A stretch of DNA of 52,818 nt from Nitrosopumilaceae archaeon (GTDB taxonomy: Archaea > Thermoproteota > Nitrososphaeria > Nitrososphaerales > Nitrosopumilaceae), in the NCBI GenBank assembly GCA_024644385.1, contig JAHELB010000005.1, positions 1 to 52,818 of the forward strand. Reading direction: 5' to 3'. Of the stretch, positions 16,195 through 36,248 are shown in pieces (position 1 is the first letter of the stretch; each line of letters starts with the position of its first letter). Position numbers and translations under genes: made by a program. Below the pieces are notes generated by a model that was not told where the DNA came from, did no database searches, and worked only from the letters and a program-made list of their open reading frames with translations.

Positions 16195-16262
16195 AGCATG
16201 CCACAAACCCAAAAGTATCGTTAAATAAAGACCTCCGACCATTTTTTTGGAGGGCTTTATTT
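16195..16262 (+). promoter_or_regulatory. AGCATGCCACAAA element, mini-ORF MPQTQKYR and overlapping hairpin
   Basis: AGCATGCCACAAA (16195-16207) is one copy of the recurrent element. Its ATG (16198) opens an 8-codon ORF MPQTQKYR ending at TAA 16222-16224. The stop codon overlaps the left arm of an inverted repeat: arms 16223-16236 and 16249-16262 pair at 13 of 14 positions around a 12-nt T-rich loop. The hairpin lies about 50 nt before the secreted protein at 16315. This geometry resembles a leader-peptide attenuator, but nothing of the kind has been shown for this element in archaea. Confidence 0.55.
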
Positions 16263-16971: not shown

Positions 16972-18378
16972 CTATTCATTTACCATATACTTTAAACTAA
17001 TGTACTCATGTTTTGCCTGAGTCAATTCATTTCTTTGCTTTATGATTTTTTCAGTCAACTGAGAAATCTTTTTTGCAAAGTTGTCTGGTTGGGAACTTTG
17101 TTTTGCCAAATCATCCAAAGATTTTTTGTCTAGGGAAATTTTCTCTTGCAATAATGCTATCTTGATTTCAAGTTCATTTAATAAATTTGAAACATCTTCA
17201 GTCGTAATTATGCTACCTTGAATGGAATTAGGGTCACTGGCATTTACTTTTGCAGAACTTGTTTGGCATGAATATGCCCTTAATGCTTCGCTTAATTTAA
17301 TTGATTTTATTTCAGAATCCGATCTTATCATGACCTCTGGAAACGGAATTTTATTCAAACCTGCACACACCTCAAAGACAAAATTATACGAGGAGATCAG
17401 CGGGTCTGATTCAAGTCGTCCTGCATCAGAATACTGTGGAACTGTCTTAATGGAGTTAACGTGGGGATAACTTTTGGCAGGAACCTCTGTAGGCAATATC
17501 TCTTTGTTTGTCAATTGAGGATTTACAATTACTGGGGATTTGCTGTTTACAATCAGGACATATTGATTTTTTTGCAAGTCTGATCTTGCCACATTTAGGT
17601 CATTTCTAAGACTAATTATTTTGTCAGTCTTTTCAGATATCTTTTGGTTATAGTCTGATGAGGGAGGGTTTTGTTTTATAATTTCAGAGAGTTCCTTTTT
17701 TTCTGAGGCAATTTTTTCTTGAAGATTTGTGACCTTTGATTCTAGTTCTCCCACAATTAATGAAAGATCAGCCTTTTTGACCAAACTTCCTTGGATTGAA
17801 CTGGTATTTGCTGCTTTAATTATTGTTGTACTAATTTGACAGGACATCGCAGGTATGTTGCTTGATAAAAGAACAGACCTTGATTCGCTATCTGATGTTA
17901 TCAAAACCTCAGGTGAACGAATAAGACTAGATTTTGCGCAGGCCTCAAAAACATAGTTGTATGTTGTAATAATCTCTGGCTTTGTTTCATGGATTCCAGT
18001 GTTAAAATAAAGTGGAACTATTCTTATGGTATTAACATCCCCAATGTTTGATATTTGTGGTTTATTTGTAAAATCCTCTATAGTTTTTGCCCAACCTACC
18101 TGCAGCATTTTGTCAAAAGAACTACTAGTGACACAAGCAGCAGAATTTGAGCCGGCACGAATAATCAACTTTAATCCTGTTTTACAAACCACATCGGTAG
18201 GTTTTACTCCGTCATCTATCTGTGCCCTTGGAGATGGAATGGTGGAGGCTGCACCATATGATAAACTAACAGTGCCTGATAACAGTATTGCAAGGACAGT
18301 TATTGAAAGTAGTTTGTAGTAGTTCAATTCGAATTTAAATTTCCTGGTTACTAGAGGGTTTTGGTGACTCAAAATCAA
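16972..18378 (-). CDS. Secreted protein with two VCAG-domain plus coiled-coil modules
   Basis: This 468-residue protein has an N-terminal signal/TM (about 23-43, ending SYGAA). Then comes a short region with CKTGLKLIIRAGS and ACV...GWAK, common in thaumarchaeal exported proteins. Two modules follow, each a beta domain with YxFVFExCA, PEVxIxSDSE and a second Cys about 35 residues on (about 140-210 and 310-385). Each domain is followed by a helical hairpin of 65-75 residues with heptad spacing and a central turn (about 210-275 and 385-460). Paralogues lie at 25106, 28520 and 33547. The start is TTG 18378. A structural cell-surface role is inferred. Confidence 0.75.
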   Translation of the reverse strand: MILSHQNPLVTRKFKFELNYYKLLSITVLAILLSGTVSLSYGAASTIPSPRAQIDDGVKPTDVVCKTGLKLIIRAGSNSAACVTSSSFDKMLQVGWAKTIEDFTNKPQISNIGDVNTIRIVPLYFNTGIHETKPEIITTYNYVFEACAKSSLIRSPEVLITSDSESRSVLLSSNIPAMSCQISTTIIKAANTSSIQGSLVKKADLSLIVGELESKVTNLQEKIASEKKELSEIIKQNPPSSDYNQKISEKTDKIISLRNDLNVARSDLQKNQYVLIVNSKSPVIVNPQLTNKEILPTEVPAKSYPHVNSIKTVPQYSDAGRLESDPLISSYNFVFEVCAGLNKIPFPEVMIRSDSEIKSIKLSEALRAYSCQTSSAKVNASDPNSIQGSIITTEDVSNLLNELEIKIALLQEKISLDKKSLDDLAKQSSQPDNFAKKISQLTEKIIKQRNELTQAKHEYISLKYMVNE

Positions 18379-18435
18379 ATTCCTTTTTGCTATTCTTTTT
18401 AAAACTTTTAGTTAAGGTTGTCCAAAATTTTGGAA

Positions 18436-18591
18436 TCAAATCTCATCATCTACGAATATCCAAGACAAACCTATTACGTCCATTGCACAGGTGTTTTGCC
18501 TTGACACCAATTCAAGATGAATTTTTTCCTTTTGTTGGAAAGTCTGATTTTCAGAGGTTGCTTTCCCTAATTCCAAATCTAATTGGTTCAT
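18436..18591 (-). CDS. 51-residue small protein, copy A of an unnamed family
   Basis: The protein begins MNQLDLELGKATSENQ and ends NTCAMDVIGLSWIFVDDEI. It is nearly identical to the protein at 26061-26222, sharing an ELVSRQNTCAMDVIGLSW core, which shows that both are real genes. One Cys, no membrane segment, acidic C-terminus. The frame is open upstream through the leader (MPQINKH at 18642), so a 68-residue version is also possible. It lies 57 nt upstream of, and on the same strand as, the secreted VCAG protein at 16972-18378. I recognise no known family. Confidence 0.7.
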   Translation of the reverse strand: MNQLDLELGKATSENQTFQQKEKIHLELVSRQNTCAMDVIGLSWIFVDDEI

Positions 18592-18645
18592 ATAAAAAAT
18601 AACTTTATCAGATATATGTTCATGCTTATTTATTTGTGGCATGCC
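18592..18645 (-). promoter_or_regulatory. GGCATGCCACAAA leader element upstream of small protein A
   Basis: The element occupies 18633-18645 on the minus strand. Its ATG (18642) begins MPQINKH and, unlike the copies at 26 and 35 kb, has no stop codon before the small-protein ATG exactly 51 nt downstream. The leader therefore reads in frame into the protein. Confidence 0.6.
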
Positions 18646-19243: not shown

Positions 19244-19256
19244 GGCATTCCACAAA
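19244..19256 (+). repeat. Degenerate copy of the GGCATGCCACAAA element
   Basis: The plus strand reads GGCATTCCACAAA. In the ATG-equivalent frame it would read (I)PQNKIYT-stop, similar to the MPQTQKYR mini-ORF but starting with ATT. It lies about 40 nt before the gene at 19296. Confidence 0.4.
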
Positions 19257-19295: not shown

Positions 19296-19697
19296 TTGAC
19301 AAACATGGCTATCGTGACTTCAAACGAAATAATTTCCCTTGAGACAGCCTGTAAAAACCTTCTAGAAATGGATAAGGTAAGACATGTTGCTGTAATTAGC
19401 AAATTAGGAAAACTTGTAGTGGGCCAGTTTAAGCCAGGAGTAAGACCCTACTTGGAAAATGACCAGATCAAAATGGTTTACATGCAACTGATGCTGGACC
19501 TAAAAATGAGACAGGAACTAGATGAAATTCTGGGACCAATAGACTATATTACATCCAGACGAAAAAATATTTCCATTATCTGTGTTCCTACTGAACACTT
19601 TCTGGTAGTAATAAGTACGGAGAGAAATGTGAGTTCTAGTAAAGTTGTGACTAGGGCAGAAGAACTATTTGATATAATTAATTTAAATGGCATTTAG
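19296..19697 (+). CDS. Roadblock-like thaumarchaeal protein (DUF6659-type)
   Basis: This 133-residue alpha/beta protein has a core with RHVAVISKLGKLVVGQF followed by two strands, IDYITSRRKNISIICVPTEHFLVVISTE. This recalls the Roadblock/LC7 fold and a small family I know only from Thaumarchaeota. The function is unknown, and GTPase regulation or chemosensory signalling are possibilities. A TTG start at 19296 or ATG at 19305 is possible. TTTATAC (19263-19269) is a TATA candidate. A secreted-protein gene follows after 23 nt. Confidence 0.65.
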   Translation: MTNMAIVTSNEIISLETACKNLLEMDKVRHVAVISKLGKLVVGQFKPGVRPYLENDQIKMVYMQLMLDLKMRQELDEILGPIDYITSRRKNISIICVPTEHFLVVISTERNVSSSKVVTRAEELFDIINLNGI

Positions 19698-21059: not shown

Positions 21060-21425
21060 TCATATTTCTACACTCAAAGATTTATGAGAAACTATATTGA
21101 CATATGAAACTAAATTTTGGCATGTCTCATGTGTGGGTACATTTTTAATTGCATTACATTTGGCACATTTTCTCACAGTAGCCTTTTTACAACATGTGCA
21201 GGTTGAAACAGGTACTAGGGGGCCTTTACATAAACTGCATTCATAAAAAATATTTTTTGAGAGGCTAGCTTCATCATAGACATTTGTAAACCCTTTTTGA
21301 TGGTCTGGAGTTTTTTCAAATGTTGGCGCAATCAAGTGATTTTTGATGAAACTTATTCCTCTCATGGGACTCACATGAATAATATCATCAATAATTATTT
21401 GACATTTGCTGGATATTTGTGGCAT
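21060..21425 (-). CDS. Zinc-ribbon protein beginning with the MPQ leader sequence
   Basis: This 121-residue protein has a C-terminal half with CSLC, CTCC, CAKC and a further Cys, likely two zinc sites. The N-terminal half (residues 1-65) has no recognised domain. The start codon is the ATG of a GGCATGCCACAAA element (21416-21428), so the protein begins MPQIS. An internal Met21 start is possible. It sits 8 nt behind the next zinc-ribbon gene, suggesting an operon. Nucleic-acid or protein binding is a plausible but unproven role. Confidence 0.6.
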   Translation of the reverse strand: MPQISSKCQIIIDDIIHVSPMRGISFIKNHLIAPTFEKTPDHQKGFTNVYDEASLSKNIFYECSLCKGPLVPVSTCTCCKKATVRKCAKCNAIKNVPTHETCQNLVSYVNIVSHKSLSVEI

Positions 21426-21428
21426 GCC
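21416..21428 (-). repeat. GGCATGCCACAAA element at the start codon of a zinc-ribbon gene
   Basis: Perfect 13-nt copy on the minus strand. Its ATG (21425-21423) is the annotated start codon of the 121-residue zinc-ribbon protein. Confidence 0.6.
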
Positions 21429-21663: not shown

Positions 21664-21858
21664 TTAGTGAACCAACTGTACTAACTGGGAAGGATTGTTG
21701 CGGAATTGATTTGCCATGTACATTATTTTTTCTCCTTCAGGCATTGGATTGGCACATTTTCCACAAAGTGGCCTTATCACTAGTGCATCATAATCGATTT
21801 CACCAATAGGGGTCTTACAAGTAAAGCAGACGATTGGCTTTGTGTCATAGTCATTCAT
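21664..21858 (-). CDS. 64-residue zinc-ribbon protein
   Basis: It starts MNDYDTKPIVCFTCKTPIGE, with CxxC at 11/14 and CGKC at 32/35, forming one zinc ribbon of the RPB10-like spacing. It resembles the N-terminal part of RNA polymerase subunit N/Rpb10 (CFTC...G) but lacks the second half of that fold, so I do not call it rpoN. It is the first gene of the zinc-ribbon run and is preceded by a leader element with mini-ORF MPQINRH, 37 nt upstream. Confidence 0.62.
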   Translation of the reverse strand: MNDYDTKPIVCFTCKTPIGEIDYDALVIRPLCGKCANPMPEGEKIMYMANQFRNNPSQLVQLVH

Positions 21859-21894: not shown

Positions 21895-21920
21895 TTAATG
21901 GCGATTAATTTGTGGCATGC
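21895..21920 (-). promoter_or_regulatory. GCATGCCACAAA element with mini-ORF MPQINRH
   Basis: The minus strand carries GCATGCCACAAA (21920-21909). The ATG at 21918 opens seven codons, MPQINRH, closed by TAA at 21895-21897. The next gene start is 36 nt further on (21858). The same heptapeptide pattern MPQxNxH-stop recurs at 26010 and 35071. Confidence 0.6.
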
Positions 21921-22002
21921 TTTTTTACAAATATGGCAGGCCACAATTGTATGAATGACCTTTAATTTTGATTTCTCAAATAAAAATGAGGAATTGATTC
22001 GT

Positions 22003-25105: not shown

Positions 25106-25675
25106 CTAACTTCCTTTAAGGACGTAGAGTAATCTATAGTACTCTGACCTAGCATCTCTTAACTCCTTTCTTAAATCTACAAGATTTGACCCAATTTCAT
25201 TTAATTTTGAAATTTCAACTACCTTTGTTGGAGTGTTTCCAGGAATTGTATTGAGTAGTTCCTGTAAATTATTATTTTGCAAGGCAATGTTTGACTTTAT
25301 CTTGATTAACTTCTTTTCAGCGTTATCAATCATTGTATTGAGTTTTGCTTTGTTTATTACTTTGATTTTGATGTTTGCTGGATCAAAGGCTTGAATTTGA
25401 GTTGCTGTTGTAGTACAGGTTCCCATTGAAATTACTTTGCTTAAATGAACGGTTTTTACTTCAGCAAAAGAGGTTACGATAACTTCTGGAGCCCTCATAT
25501 TTACTGCATCACCTGCACATACCTGAAATAGCACAGTGTGAATATTTTCGACGCTTGTTGGTGCGATAGTTAAAACCTTGGTTGTTGGTTTTTCAGCAGC
25601 AAATGCTTGATTTGTTCCGGCAAAAATTAGAGCTGTTGCCAAAATTGTAATTATTACGGTTAATTTTTTATTCAA
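25106..25675 (-). CDS. Secreted protein with one VCAG domain and helical hairpin
   Basis: This 189-residue protein has a signal peptide (about 5-26, ending NQAFAA). One beta domain (about 45-118) carries VLFQVCAGD, APEVIVTS and a second Cys in MGTCTTTA. A helical hairpin (about 120-186) follows, with heptad Leu/Ile and a PGNTP turn. It is the minimal form of the module that is doubled in the proteins at 16972 and 33547. Its closest relative in the window is at 28520 (VCAGD...RAPEV). The start is TTG 25675. A degenerate leader element (25890-25902) points towards it. Confidence 0.75.
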   Translation of the reverse strand: MNKKLTVIITILATALIFAGTNQAFAAEKPTTKVLTIAPTSVENIHTVLFQVCAGDAVNMRAPEVIVTSFAEVKTVHLSKVISMGTCTTTATQIQAFDPANIKIKVINKAKLNTMIDNAEKKLIKIKSNIALQNNNLQELLNTIPGNTPTKVVEISKLNEIGSNLVDLRKELRDARSEYYRLLYVLKGS

Positions 25676-26004
25676 TTTTTTTCACCCCCACTTAGTCTTC
25701 TAAGTTAAATTTCCTGAGCTGTAAAATTGCTCACAACCCCTTCATACCTTCTAATGGTTTTGTTTGAAGTGTACCATCCTACTATATCTAAGGTACAGAA
25801 AGATTTTCGATTAGTGGATTCCTTATAGAACAAATTTCCAGCTTTCATAAAATATCATTTGCAAACCATTATTAGATAATACCCTGCCTATTGTGGTATG
25901 CCTCTTGGTTACTCTGGTTCTTGATTTTTTAAACCATCAAGGGTAAAGTTTGTAGTTTTCTCATAGTTGATTTGTGAAGCTAGTCTATGATAATATTTTT
26001 GGAC
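25676..26004. other. AT-rich intergenic region
   Basis: About 330 nt without a convincing gene. It contains one degenerate GGCATACCACAAT element (25890-25902, minus strand) and a short plus-strand frame at 25898 (MPLGYSGS) that I regard as chance. It probably holds divergent promoters for the secreted protein at 25106 and the small-protein cassette at 26005. Confidence 0.4.
25890..25902 (-). repeat. Degenerate copy of the GGCATGCCACAAA element
   Basis: The minus strand reads GGCATACCACAAT, with ATA in place of ATG followed by CCA CAA TAG. It faces the secreted protein gene at 25106-25675, 215 nt away. Confidence 0.4.
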
Positions 26005-26060
26005 AAGGCATGCCACAAACTAATGGGCATTAACAAATATTTCCCTGCCATTGTACTTGC
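26005..26060 (+). promoter_or_regulatory. AAGGCATGCCACAAA leader cassette with mini-ORF MPQTNGH
   Basis: The element is 26005-26019. ATG 26010 opens MPQTNGH and TAA 26031-26033 closes it. The small-protein ATG follows 51 nt after the leader ATG. The first 50 nt match the copy at 35026-35075 (opposite strand) at all but four positions. Three of the four changes (Thr codon ACT/ACC, Gly codon GGG/GGA, and one past the stop) leave the peptide unchanged, and none alters it. Confidence 0.65.
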
Positions 26061-26222
26061 ATGAACCAATTAAATTTGGAATTAGGGAAAGCAGTCTCTG
26101 AAAATCAAATTGCTTTTCCACAAAAGGAAAAAATTAATCTTGAATTGGTGTCAAGACAAAACACCTGTGCAATGGACGTAATAGGTTTGTCTTGGATGTT
26201 CGTAGAGGATGATGAAATTTGA
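26061..26222 (+). CDS. 53-residue small protein, copy B of an unnamed family
   Basis: It begins MNQLNLELGKAVSENQ and ends CAMDVIGLSWMFVEDDEI. It is near-identical to copy A (18436-18591), differing by a two-residue insertion and a few conservative changes concentrated in the middle. The conservation at protein level over two distant loci supports translation. Single Cys, acidic tail, no signal. It lies 82 nt upstream of the fibronectin-III protein at 26305 on the same strand. No known family is recognised. Confidence 0.7.
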   Translation: MNQLNLELGKAVSENQIAFPQKEKINLELVSRQNTCAMDVIGLSWMFVEDDEI

Positions 26223-26304
26223 TTTTCCAATCGCTCTATAGAAAATTCAAACCAAAAGGAGAAAAAAATTTTCATTTTAATGAAGAGATTTTGGAATCCT
26301 TCAA

Positions 26305-28368
26305 GTGACTAAAAACAAAGTGAACAAAAGTATGATTTCTATTCAATCTTTAAGTAGTAATATTATTAGGAAAAGTACCATGAGACTACATTTTTTAGCT
26401 GTATTTTTTGTTTTATCTGCAGTTTTGCTGGTTACAGGAGCTCATGTATCATTTGCCCAAACAGCAACACCAACTGCACCTGAACCGATAATAGATTTAG
26501 CTCCAATCCCAGGAAACGAAGAGGTTAGACTTGATTGGAGTGCACCTTTCGACAATGGGGCGCCTATAACTAGCTACAAAGTAATAATGTGGCAAACAGG
26601 TTCAGATGTTACAACTACATATCCAAATCTTAGCACCTCGACATCAACGACAATTACTGGCTTAAAAAATGGAGTATCATATAGTTTCAAAGTTTTTGCA
26701 ATAAATTCTGCTGGAACCAGTGCTGATTCTAATATTGTCTTGACAACCCCATCAAAATCCATAATACCACCTGAGCCAATCACCGATTTAGTTTCAATCC
26801 CAGGAAACGAGGAGGTTAGACTTGTTTGGAGTGCACCTTTCGACAATGGGGTGCCTATAACTAACTACAAAGTAATAATGTGGCAAACCGGTTCAGATGT
26901 TACAACTACATATCCAAATCTTAGCACCTCGACATCAGCGATATTAACTGGCTTAAAAAATGGAGTATCATATAGTTTCAAAGTTTTTGCAATAAATTCT
27001 GCTGGAACCAGTGCTGATTCTAATATTGTATCATCCAAACCAGTAGCAGACGCGCCCTTGGTTGGAGTCCCATCTAAAATAAACACTCTTGTAGCCACCA
27101 GAGATGACGGTAAGGCAAATCTTTCTTGGACCAAACCCAATTCCAATGGTTCATCTATTACCTCCTTTGTGATTACATACTGGCAAGTCGGTACAAATGA
27201 TTTTTTCAAAAAAACTGTCACAGCTGATGCCACCAAAGCTCAGGTAACGGGGTTAACAAATGGTGTATCTTATGCCTTTAAAATAAACGCCAAAAATGGA
27301 GTAGGATTTGGTCCTGATTCTAATATAGACTCTGCAACCCCCTCAAAATCAACCACAGCCTCAGTTCCAAACCAAGTTAGAAAGGTAATTGCCACACCAA
27401 GTGATGGCCAGGTTTTTTTATCGTGGATTGAACCTTCTGATAACGGCGCATCTATTAGCAGTTACACGATAACTGTTTCCAAGAGAGGATCAAACGTTTA
27501 CACCACTTATCCTAACCTACCTGCAACAACACAAGCAACAATATCTGATTTGACAAATGGGCAAACCTATGAATTTACGGTTAGTGCTGTAAATTCAAAG
27601 GGAACAGGAAAAGCATCTGCTCCAACCTTTGCTATCCCAAATAATAAAAACCCAATATCCATCTCTAATCTCAAAGTAACACCTGCAAATGAAAAGGTAA
27701 AATTATCTTGGTCAATATCAACATCAGATCTTGAAAAGATATCAGGTTATAGGATTAGAGTCTATGAAAGCGGCTCAAGCTCCTTTGAAACTCATTCTCT
27801 TTTAGGAAAAACTACAAACTTTACCCTTGATGGTTTGAAAAATGGAAAACCATACGGTTTCCAGGTATTCACGGTAAGTTCTGAGGGTTTGGGGCCAGGA
27901 TCTAGAATTGTATCTGCAACTCCATTTGTCCCAATATTGGTTTCTCCAGATGCCCCAGGACAAATCAAGGATCTCAAAGCAGTTCCAGGAGATTCAAAGG
28001 TAACTCTTTCATGGACTGCTCCTTCAGATAAGGGATCGTCAATTACTCAATATAGGATTACCCAGGTAAAGGCAAACTCTGATTCCTTTAAAACAATTGA
28101 ATATTCTGGAACTACAAAGTCTGCTGTTATTACAGGACTACAAAATGAGGTTACATATAATTTCAAAATTCAAGGAAAAAATGCAGTTGGATTGGGTCCA
28201 GAGTCAAATACTGTTTCAGTGATACCAAAATCTTCACTACCCCAACCCACAATTCCTGCTTGGATTAAAACAACTGCTCAATGGTGGGCAGAAGGCAAGA
28301 TCTCAAATCTTGAATACTCCAAAGCAATAGAATGGCTAATCAATGAAGGAATTATTAGGATAAAATAA
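26305..28368 (+). CDS. Secreted multi-fibronectin type III protein with C-terminal WWxxG module
   Basis: This 687-residue protein has a signal peptide (Met28 onward, HFLAVFFVLSAVLLVTGAHVSFAQ) and about six Fn3 domains. Each shows the pattern P-x-(6)-L-x-W-x-P-(x)-N/D-G-x-x-I-x-x-Y and L-x-N-G-V-x-Y-x-F-x-V. A C-terminal module IPAWIKTTAQWWAEGKIS follows at about 650-687. Domains 1 and 2 are a recent tandem duplication of a 291-bp unit. The annotated GTG start at 26305 precedes Met28 by an unusually long N-region, so the true start may be internal. Likely a cell-surface adhesin or S-layer partner. Paralogue: 30164-31849. Confidence 0.85.
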   Translation: MTKNKVNKSMISIQSLSSNIIRKSTMRLHFLAVFFVLSAVLLVTGAHVSFAQTATPTAPEPIIDLAPIPGNEEVRLDWSAPFDNGAPITSYKVIMWQTGSDVTTTYPNLSTSTSTTITGLKNGVSYSFKVFAINSAGTSADSNIVLTTPSKSIIPPEPITDLVSIPGNEEVRLVWSAPFDNGVPITNYKVIMWQTGSDVTTTYPNLSTSTSAILTGLKNGVSYSFKVFAINSAGTSADSNIVSSKPVADAPLVGVPSKINTLVATRDDGKANLSWTKPNSNGSSITSFVITYWQVGTNDFFKKTVTADATKAQVTGLTNGVSYAFKINAKNGVGFGPDSNIDSATPSKSTTASVPNQVRKVIATPSDGQVFLSWIEPSDNGASISSYTITVSKRGSNVYTTYPNLPATTQATISDLTNGQTYEFTVSAVNSKGTGKASAPTFAIPNNKNPISISNLKVTPANEKVKLSWSISTSDLEKISGYRIRVYESGSSSFETHSLLGKTTNFTLDGLKNGKPYGFQVFTVSSEGLGPGSRIVSATPFVPILVSPDAPGQIKDLKAVPGDSKVTLSWTAPSDKGSSITQYRITQVKANSDSFKTIEYSGTTKSAVITGLQNEVTYNFKIQGKNAVGLGPESNTVSVIPKSSLPQPTIPAWIKTTAQWWAEGKISNLEYSKAIEWLINEGIIRIK
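26505..27035 (+). repeat. Tandem 291-bp repeat within the Fn3 gene
   Basis: The segments 26505-26744 and 26796-27035 are in register at 291 bp (97 codons) and differ at only about ten positions over 240 nt. The low divergence compared with the other Fn3 domains of the same gene indicates a recent in-frame duplication of one domain. Confidence 0.85.
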
Positions 28369-33546: not shown

Positions 33547-34836
33547 TTATCGATATATTTGAAGTAGTAATCTACTTAGTTCGCCCTTGGCAGAAATTAT
33601 ATCACTTCTCAATTTGGATATGCTTTCTACCTTCATGGTTAGTTGTTCATTGAAGTCTTCTGCCCTGTTTGGATCATGAACCAAGGTCTTCATACTTTCT
33701 TTTTCAGATACGAGTTGTTTTGTGAGGTCGTCGATCTTTTTCTCTAGTTGTGTTATCTTGTTAGATGAATCAGCGTTTCCAGCAACGTTTACTGTAATAC
33801 TTTCAGAGTCTGTTGCCCCAATTTTTGCTGAAGTAAATTGGCATGTTTTAGGTGCTATTTTATCTCCAAGTTTAACATTAACGCTTTCTTTATCTGAGGA
33901 AATCATTATTACTGGAACTCTGACTTGTTCCTCTCCTGCACATGCCTCAAACACTACATCAAAAGTATTTGGTGATGCCACTGAGGGGAGTACAGAAATT
34001 TTGTTGGCCAAATACCCTGTAATTGGGGTCCCAGAAAATGTCAGTTTATCTAATTGAAGATTTGATTTTGTAGGTGTGTATAAAACAAAGTACATTCGTT
34101 GCAAATCTGCTCTTGCATCATTTAGTTGCTTTCTCAAATCTATAATTTTATTTCCCAATTGCTTATTTGCCTCTGTGGCTTCTTTACCAAAGGTTTTTTT
34201 CACTTCATTTAGTTCCATTCTAAGAGAATCTACTTTTGCTGCTGCTGCCTGGATCTTTTGAGAAATATCTCCTTTGCTAACTAAAGTAGCTGAGATTGAA
34301 TCGGGGCTAGCAGCTTTGATTATAGTAGCACTTGTTACACACGAATTTTGGGCAACTGTTTCAACTAACTCATATCGTTTTGTCTCGCTATCTGAGGTGA
34401 TTAATACCTCTGGGGATACCAAAGATTGAGTCACTGCACATACCTCGAATACATAATCATAACTTCCGACGGATACTTTGGGTGATAATTTGCCAAGGTC
34501 ACTTTTAATTGGAGTTACAATTACCTTGTTAATTTTTCCAGCAGGTGATGAAAGTTTTGTAATGAAATCTTTTAGTTTTGCCTCGTCAATGGGTTTTGCC
34601 CAGCCGTTTTCGACTAATTTTTTAACACTGTCTGGCTTTACACAAGCTGGAGAATTTTTCCCTTCCCTGATCACTTTGAATAATCCTGTATCACAAATGA
34701 CTTTATCAGATGAAATTCCAATCTTTACTTGTTTTTTAGGGGCAAGAACATCTGCATAGGCTGGAGCTGTTAGTGACATTACAAGAATTACTGAAAGAAT
34801 TGAAGCAAATAATATTGCGTGATTAATTTTCAACAT
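33547..34836 (-). CDS. Secreted protein with two VCAG-domain plus coiled-coil modules
   Basis: This 429-residue protein has a signal peptide (about 6-29, ending PAYADV). A region with ICDTGLFKVIREGKNSPACVKP...GWAK follows, then a first VCAG domain (YDYVFEVCAV, PEVLITSDSE, NSCVTS; about 125-195). The first helical hairpin is about 195-255. The second VCAG domain is FDVVFEACAGEEQ, VIMISSDKES, KTCQFTS. A C-terminal hairpin with heptad Leu/Ile closes the protein (ITQLEKKIDDLTKQLVSEK). Overall arrangement equals that of 16972-18378. ATG start, 52 nt after the small protein at 34889. A filamentous or scaffold-like surface role is inferred. Confidence 0.77.
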   Translation of the reverse strand: MLKINHAILFASILSVILVMSLTAPAYADVLAPKKQVKIGISSDKVICDTGLFKVIREGKNSPACVKPDSVKKLVENGWAKPIDEAKLKDFITKLSSPAGKINKVIVTPIKSDLGKLSPKVSVGSYDYVFEVCAVTQSLVSPEVLITSDSETKRYELVETVAQNSCVTSATIIKAASPDSISATLVSKGDISQKIQAAAAKVDSLRMELNEVKKTFGKEATEANKQLGNKIIDLRKQLNDARADLQRMYFVLYTPTKSNLQLDKLTFSGTPITGYLANKISVLPSVASPNTFDVVFEACAGEEQVRVPVIMISSDKESVNVKLGDKIAPKTCQFTSAKIGATDSESITVNVAGNADSSNKITQLEKKIDDLTKQLVSEKESMKTLVHDPNRAEDFNEQLTMKVESISKLRSDIISAKGELSRLLLQIYR

Positions 34837-34888: not shown

Positions 34889-35020
34889 CTAAAAAATTCC
34901 CCTTAGGTCTTCCCAGGTAATTTGACTTTGACAAATCTTAACCCCTTCTAGATTTGATTCTCTTTTTACCTGAGGAATTGATGGTTCAAATTTCCTTGCT
35001 TCCAAAATTATTTGGCTCAT
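34889..35020 (-). CDS. 43-residue small protein, divergent copy C of the small-protein family
   Basis: It begins MSQIILEARKFEPSIPQVKRESNLEG and ends CQSQITWEDLRGIF. The first 20 residues line up with copies A and B (MxQxxLExxK ... PQ), with the C-terminal half divergent. The start-codon context (ATGAGCCAAATAA) matches copy B at most positions, and the ATG is 51 nt after the leader ATG exactly as in A and B. It is directly upstream of the secreted protein at 33547-34836 on the same strand. Confidence 0.55.
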   Translation of the reverse strand: MSQIILEARKFEPSIPQVKRESNLEGVKICQSQITWEDLRGIF

Positions 35021-35075
35021 GTAAAAACAATGGCAGGCAGATATTTGTTAATGTCCATTGGTTTGTGGCATGCCT
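35021..35075 (-). promoter_or_regulatory. AAGGCATGCCACAAA leader cassette with mini-ORF MPQTNGH
   Basis: The element is 35061-35075 on the minus strand. The ATG at 35071 opens MPQTNGH and TAA 35048-35050 ends it. A TATA-like TTTAAAT (35092-35098) lies about 24 nt before the ATG, so the mini-ORF could start at the 5' end of the transcript. The leader is nearly identical to that at 26005. Confidence 0.65.
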
Positions 35076-36121: not shown

Positions 36122-36248
36122 GTGAGAGAAAAAGAACATTCAATACATATTTTTTCCTTCTCTCACACTTTTCTAAATTGTATTTCTACCTCCAGAGAAG
36201 GTTTTCATATTATTTGATTAAAGAGTATTTTTCAGTTTTTGGCATGCC
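36122..36248 (-). promoter_or_regulatory. GGCATGCC element with mini-ORF MPKTEKYSLIK and hairpin, upstream of the TPR gene
   Basis: The element (36236-36248, minus strand) reads GGCATGCCAAAAA. ATG 36245 opens MPKTEKYSLIK with TAA at 36210-36212, similar to MPQTQKYR at 16198. Farther downstream on the transcript GTGAGAGAA (36122-36130) and TTCTCTCAC (36158-36166) form a 9-bp hairpin extended by A/T pairs across a two-base bulge. The TPR gene starts 53 nt later. Same order as at 16195-16262: leader peptide, hairpin, secreted-protein gene. Confidence 0.5.

Follow-up and report, generated by a model that had tools for sequence, protein, structure and literature searches.

A lineage-specific modular family of predicted mini-proteins behind a shared candidate promoter in Nitrosopumilaceae archaea

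Nitrosopumilaceae are among the most abundant marine archaea and are drivers of ammonia oxidation, and to our knowledge their gene regulation is barely known. In a 52,818-nt stretch of contig JAHELB010000005.1 (hereafter 'the window'), from a genome of 1.56 Mb belonging to this family, a very short open frame recurs beside genes for exported proteins, raising the question of what these frames encode and whether they serve their neighbours. A sequence-only reading of the window had listed three copies of an unnamed small-protein family, placed them between a leader and a surface gene, and proposed that they act as regulators, chaperones or antitoxin-like partners of the adjacent exported protein. 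We find that the frame at position 18,436 (ORF1 of copy A) encodes a predicted cytosolic mini-protein of about 50 residues, mostly disordered, which is part of a lineage-specific modular family.

The copies and their surroundings are collected in Table 1. As first described, copies A and B, on opposite strands, are both open and have in common the start MNQL(D/N)LELGKA, the core ELVSRQNTCAMDVIGLSW and a terminal acidic tail. At the DNA level their coding regions show 93-95% identity (42/45 in the first 45 nt of ORF1, 63/66 in the core) versus about 30% in the flanks, a contrast that on these alignments is far from chance. The longest open frame of copy A runs to 18663; this N-terminal extension was rejected because the promoter box described below would fall inside it, and the -54 geometry sets the start at 18591.

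Copy C is equally real, and here the initial description needs revision. Rather than keeping the N-terminal pattern only, it represents another subfamily, QITWEDLRG-, with the core WEDLRGLSW (compare QTTWEDLRGLSW in locus L167), and its frame meets a stop codon just at the GLSW motif. All three listed copies are thus present, and the list was incomplete: it missed copy D, which reads away from copy B, two further copies elsewhere in the genome (C31, MSTILQFKNDQ...; C8, MSQMIVHTRQ...), and a second, overlapping mini-gene (ORF2) in copies A and B. Copies C and D are degenerate. Copy B is a mosaic whose promoter resembles that of copy C (50/60) and whose ORF resembles that of copy A, with the switch at the ATG.

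Table 1. Mini-gene copies, promoter elements and neighbouring genes in the window
Feature	Position	Strand	Remarks
Copy A, ORF1	18436..18591	-	GLSW mini-protein, 51 aa; open frame
Copy A, ORF2	18335..18439	-	34 aa; TTG start overlapping TGA; divergent C-end
Copy A, promoter box	18633..18645	-	GGCATGCCACAAA; -54 from ATG
Copy A, TATA-like element	18611..18617	-	about -26 to -20
Exported repeat/coiled-coil protein	16972..18378	-	downstream of A
DUF6659 (Roadblock-like) gene	19296..19697	+	738 bp from A (profile match to match); box variant at 19244
Copy B, ORF1	26061..26222	+	53 aa; open frame
Copy B, ORF2	26219..26308	+	29 aa; TTG start overlapping TGA (TTGA)
Copy B, promoter box	26007..26019	+	
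Copy B, TATA-like element	26035..26041	+	
Exported fibronectin-III protein	26305..28368	+	downstream of B; probable signal-peptide start near 26380
Copy C, ORF1	34889..35020	-	43 aa; truncated at GLSW motif; without ORF2
Copy C, promoter box	35062..35074	-	promoter 50/60 like that of B
Exported coiled-coil protein	33547..34836	-	downstream of C
Copy D, ORF1	25705..25848	-	47 aa; divergent; core FCTLDIVGW
Copy D, promoter box	25890..25902	-	GGCATACCACAAT; -54 from ATG
Exported protein	25106..25675	-	downstream of D

Two observations concern the surface genes themselves. A 45-nt stretch of the fibronectin-III gene (27808-27852) is repeated in inverted orientation, at 91% identity, in the intergenic DNA upstream of copy D (25915-25959), which we read as a sign of recombination in this surface-gene island. 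Within the same gene, the domain repeats at 26477-26738 and 26768-27029 are 94% identical as DNA, a similarity that indicates recent duplication within the surface protein.

ORF1 evolves as a protein. Among 14 sequences of one subfamily (group 1), the overall pN/pS of 0.47 falls to 0.21 in the C-terminal core, and pN is lower than pS in 91 of 91 pairs; in the MKQQ subfamily the ratio is 0.36. Codon substitution like that of non-coding DNA, which the sequence-only reading had named as grounds for giving up the family, is therefore not what the core displays, and the cross-species ratios rule out a chance or non-coding frame. Between GLSW and the stop codon lie 4 to about 17 residues. Separately, the N-terminal half of group-1 ORF1 has a pN/pS of 0.81 and a low pS (0.37 versus 0.65 in the core): synonymous sites have diverged about half as much as in the core, though amino acids vary freely; recombination or gene conversion, or a constraint at the nucleotide level, may account for this.

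To delimit the family, we searched genomes with a profile built from 20 members. Of 250 Nitrosopumilaceae genomes, 56 contain relatives (43 of the 131 high-quality ones), spread over 7 of 22 genera, with a best E of about 1e-28 and up to six copies per genome; the relatives that bear names are MAGs of Nitrosopumilus and Nitrosarchaeum. Among 330 genomes sampled across the class, the 51 with matches all belong to the same family and none lies outside it. About 77% of the sampled family genomes carry no detectable copy, so the role is dispensable. No member with the GLSW motif scored above a family cut-off in Pfam, NCBIfam or PADLOC, and a sequence-profile search of the PDB gave no match, in keeping with the original view that no named domain fits. 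A scan of PHROGs with the set of shared N-terminal modules (see below) returned isolated weak single-member matches, the best with E 0.0015 in 1 of 14 members; a viral origin was rejected, as no relative was confirmed in viral contigs. The literature searched yielded no publication on the promoter box, on DUF6659 or on such mini-proteins. By these searches, ORF1 defines an undescribed family of roughly 50-residue proteins confined to some marine-type ammonia-oxidizing archaea.

The proteins are built from two parts. A shared N-terminal module (RQPEPxxxLVxxxPVKEGxKL or variants) is followed by one of several C-terminal modules, either D[LVM]xGL[ST]W or, in the paralogues L180-L185 and L187-L189, a zinc ribbon; L186 carries a helical segment instead. 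The N-terminal module is common to GLSW and zinc-ribbon members by BLAST (61% over 31 aa) as well as by profile search. GLSW members lack the two CxxC knuckles, which do occur in paralogues that share their N-module and promoter. An alignment hint that the GLSW motif and the zinc-ribbon CxxCGxKSW have a common ancestor was not borne out (hhalign probability 0.3%). AlphaFold predicts a disordered N-terminal part, short low-confidence helices in the GLSW half (mean pLDDT of the GLSW structure 62) and a confident zinc-ribbon module.

All four copies in the window begin at a fixed distance from the same upstream element: each ATG lies exactly 54 nt downstream of a GGCATRCCACAAA box, with a TATA-like element in between. 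More widely, 45 of 82 unique upstream regions contain a GGCATGCCACAAA-like box (up to three mismatches) between -58 and -53 relative to the ATG, in most cases at exactly -54, compared with none in displaced windows and a mean of 0.015 after shuffling. A profile of 40 copies reads AAGGCATRCCACAAA from -56 to -42, YAT at about -33, ATATAAT at about -26 to -20, and then the ATG. By general archaeal promoter rules, we infer an operator, a BRE/TATA and a leaderless start, the box being a candidate transcription-factor site. Its half-sites (ATRCC-N11-GGYAT) show no clear base-pair-like covariation and are read as a candidate protein-binding dyad; in the MKQQ subfamily the box takes a palindromic form, ATACC-N7-GGTAT. 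The 'leader' that had been placed before the mini-gene is thus a promoter of fixed geometry rather than a coding leader, and an ATG inside the box (MPQTNGH in copies B and C) was rejected as the start of a leader peptide, the box being kept as DNA whatever the reading frame. Taken together, the sequence evidence makes it almost certain that this is a real coding family, modular and linked to the promoter.

Additional near-consensus boxes occur in the window at 21416-21428 (-), 21909-21921 (-), 19244-19256 (+), 16195-16207 (+) and 36236-36248 (-), some of them preceding genes for small zinc-knuckle proteins (21060-21425, 21664-21858) and the DUF6659 gene; this suggests that the genes behind them belong to the same regulon. 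At loci L208, L209 and L220, short ORFs ending in STKRRCI stand at +54/55 of a box, a possible further class of box-driven mini-genes.

The genes that follow the mini-genes are more varied than their arrangement in the window implies. The next gene encodes a same-strand exported protein in 36 of 82 copies, a lower bound set by a crude hydrophobicity criterion; another same-strand gene, including that of the MSKIENTS protein and DUF6659, follows in 27 of 82, and in about 10 of 82 a real opposite-strand gene comes next, leaving no same-strand partner. The proposed fixed position before a surface gene therefore holds for about half of the copies, the others being followed by MSKIENTS, DUF6659, unrelated genes or none, and so variable a neighbour gives no support to a chaperone or antitoxin dedicated to the exported protein next door, leaving regulator or adaptor as possible roles. 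DUF6659 starts at the ORF1 stop in L148, L171, L172, L179 and L199, and across 15 genomes 13 of 54 copies lie less than 1 kb from a DUF6659 gene versus 0.79 expected, an enrichment that is partly non-independent because it takes in orthologous loci of related species and, in the g11 genomes, counts two neighbouring mini-genes for one DUF6659 gene. There are 7-17 DUF6659 copies per genome, and their similarity to Roadblock sequences is weak (best E 0.015).

This neighbourhood bears directly on whether ORF1 could act in cis as a leader peptide, its translation controlling that of the next gene, or its transcription, through a ribosome paused on the GLSW motif and acidic tail. The promoter geometry places ORF1 first in the transcript, conservation is strongest in its C-terminal part, and genes for exported proteins are frequent downstream, all of which fits. 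Against this, the roughly ten standalone copies have no same-strand gene downstream and make a purely cis role unlikely, the downstream genes of different copies are mutually unrelated, the spacing between GLSW and the stop is variable, and in relatives a zinc ribbon replaces the C-module under the same promoter. We consider this reading improbable.

Directly 3' of ORF1, and overlapping its stop codon (usually as TTGA), many copies carry ORF2, a second coding mini-gene of 30-45 aa. In group 1 it lies in the -1 frame relative to ORF1, comprises 30 residues with the C-end FD.E(I/L)LE.FK, and starts with a TTG overlapping the stop (T-TGA) in 14/14 copies; in L100 and L104 ORF2 is broken although T-TGA is kept, and in copy A it is possibly decaying. 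Its pN/pS is 0.47, with pN below pS in 66/66 pairs, and in the ungapped subset the in-frame ratio is 0.37, while the two alternative frames give 0.85 and 1.18. Both frames are thus under protein selection while the second start overlaps the first stop, as in overlapping gene pairs of the ATGA/TTGA type. Nearly all matches to an ORF2 profile with E<1e-3 adjoin an ORF1, and the sole match in the window's genome is ORF2 of copy B (26222-26305, E 4e-8). The same overlapping slot holds ORF2 in many copies and DUF6659 in several.

Selection on both frames also weighs on a passenger origin, in which the mini-genes would be selfish elements spread by recombination through variable surface-gene islands, with no cellular role. 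Their patchy distribution, the mosaic copy B and the degenerate copies C and D are what such elements would leave behind, but long-term purifying selection at the protein level on ORF1 and ORF2 across genera, together with the conserved promoter geometry, makes this explanation unlikely as well.

The overlap at the ORF1 stop could alternatively serve a programmed -1 frameshift that joins ORF1 and ORF2 into one protein of about 85 aa. The invariance of TTGA in group 1 is compatible with slippage, as is the ending E(E/D)LL(D/E)xFK of some single-ORF copies, which resembles the end of ORF2. The junction has no conserved slippery heptamer, however; the codon before TGA varies (TCT, TAT, AGT, TTT, ATT) and only its T is constant. 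Furthermore, ORF2 starts with ATG in several loci (ATGA in L130, TGATG in L131, TAATG in L121 and L127) and lies in a different relative frame in L124 (junction ATGATTGA), and because its starts vary in this way, re-initiation is favoured over frameshifting, which we disfavour as very unlikely. A toxin-antitoxin-like pair, in which a disordered, acidic ORF1 product neutralises the small basic ORF2 product or an adjacent protein, is likewise disfavoured and the least probable of the readings considered: two overlapping tiny genes, acidic then basic, in several copies per genome with a patchy distribution, recall such a system, but PADLOC has no match, ORF1 lacks a DNA-binding domain, it persists where ORF2 is absent or broken, its end is fused to an ORF2-like tail in other copies, and the slot may hold DUF6659 or other genes instead.

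We hypothesize instead that the ORF1 products are small disordered adaptors of a regulon of surface and signalling genes, acting through the C-module, ORF2 or DUF6659, a reading to which we assign a probability of roughly 40%. More specifically, a transcription factor would bind the box beside the BRE/TATA and drive leaderless transcription; the ribosome would translate ORF1 and re-initiate on the second gene, ORF2 or DUF6659, keeping synthesis of the two products matched. The N-module would dock on one partner common to the whole family, and the C-module, a Trp-containing GLSW segment or a zinc ribbon, would bind a variable effector such as ORF2 or the Roadblock-like DUF6659. In this way the mini-protein would be a small adaptor within a regulon whose members include surface-protein operons. 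A doubtful extension of the adaptor hypothesis, offered tentatively, is a lineage-specific plug-in set: a single promoter and a single N-terminal docking module would have been joined, by recombination at the ATG and just after the N-module, to varied C-terminal effector modules and varied coupled partners (ORF2, DUF6659), giving the cell many adaptors for one hub protein with which to set its surface and signalling state.

The outcome is a defined candidate operator-promoter, a list of the genes placed behind it, and small proteins that can be tested and that routine annotation will probably overlook or break up. Concrete partner predictions follow from the overlapping ORF2 and from the presumed coupling to DUF6659.

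Among known systems, regulatory leader peptides such as SecM, MifM and TnaC resemble the mini-genes in having a short first ORF, a conserved C-terminal motif and genes for exported proteins behind, and the mini-genes differ from them by their standalone copies, interchangeable C-modules and variable stop distance. With zinc-ribbon microproteins, some family members share a confidently predicted C-module, whereas GLSW members are without the cysteines and profile comparison detects no homology between the two C-modules. DUF6659 (PF20364, Roadblock-like, Nitrososphaerota) is a neighbour and sometimes a predicted translationally coupled partner of the mini-gene, and the one in the window has a box variant of its own; it is not homologous to ORF1 or ORF2. 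For the promoter, a parallel is offered by archaeal activator promoters whose operator lies just upstream of BRE/TATA, such as that of TFB-RF1 of Pyrococcus (PMC5937170). The mini-gene box differs from those promoters in sequence and lineage; by analogy, it occupies the fixed position directly upstream of the putative BRE/TATA that a TFB-recruiting activator would need.
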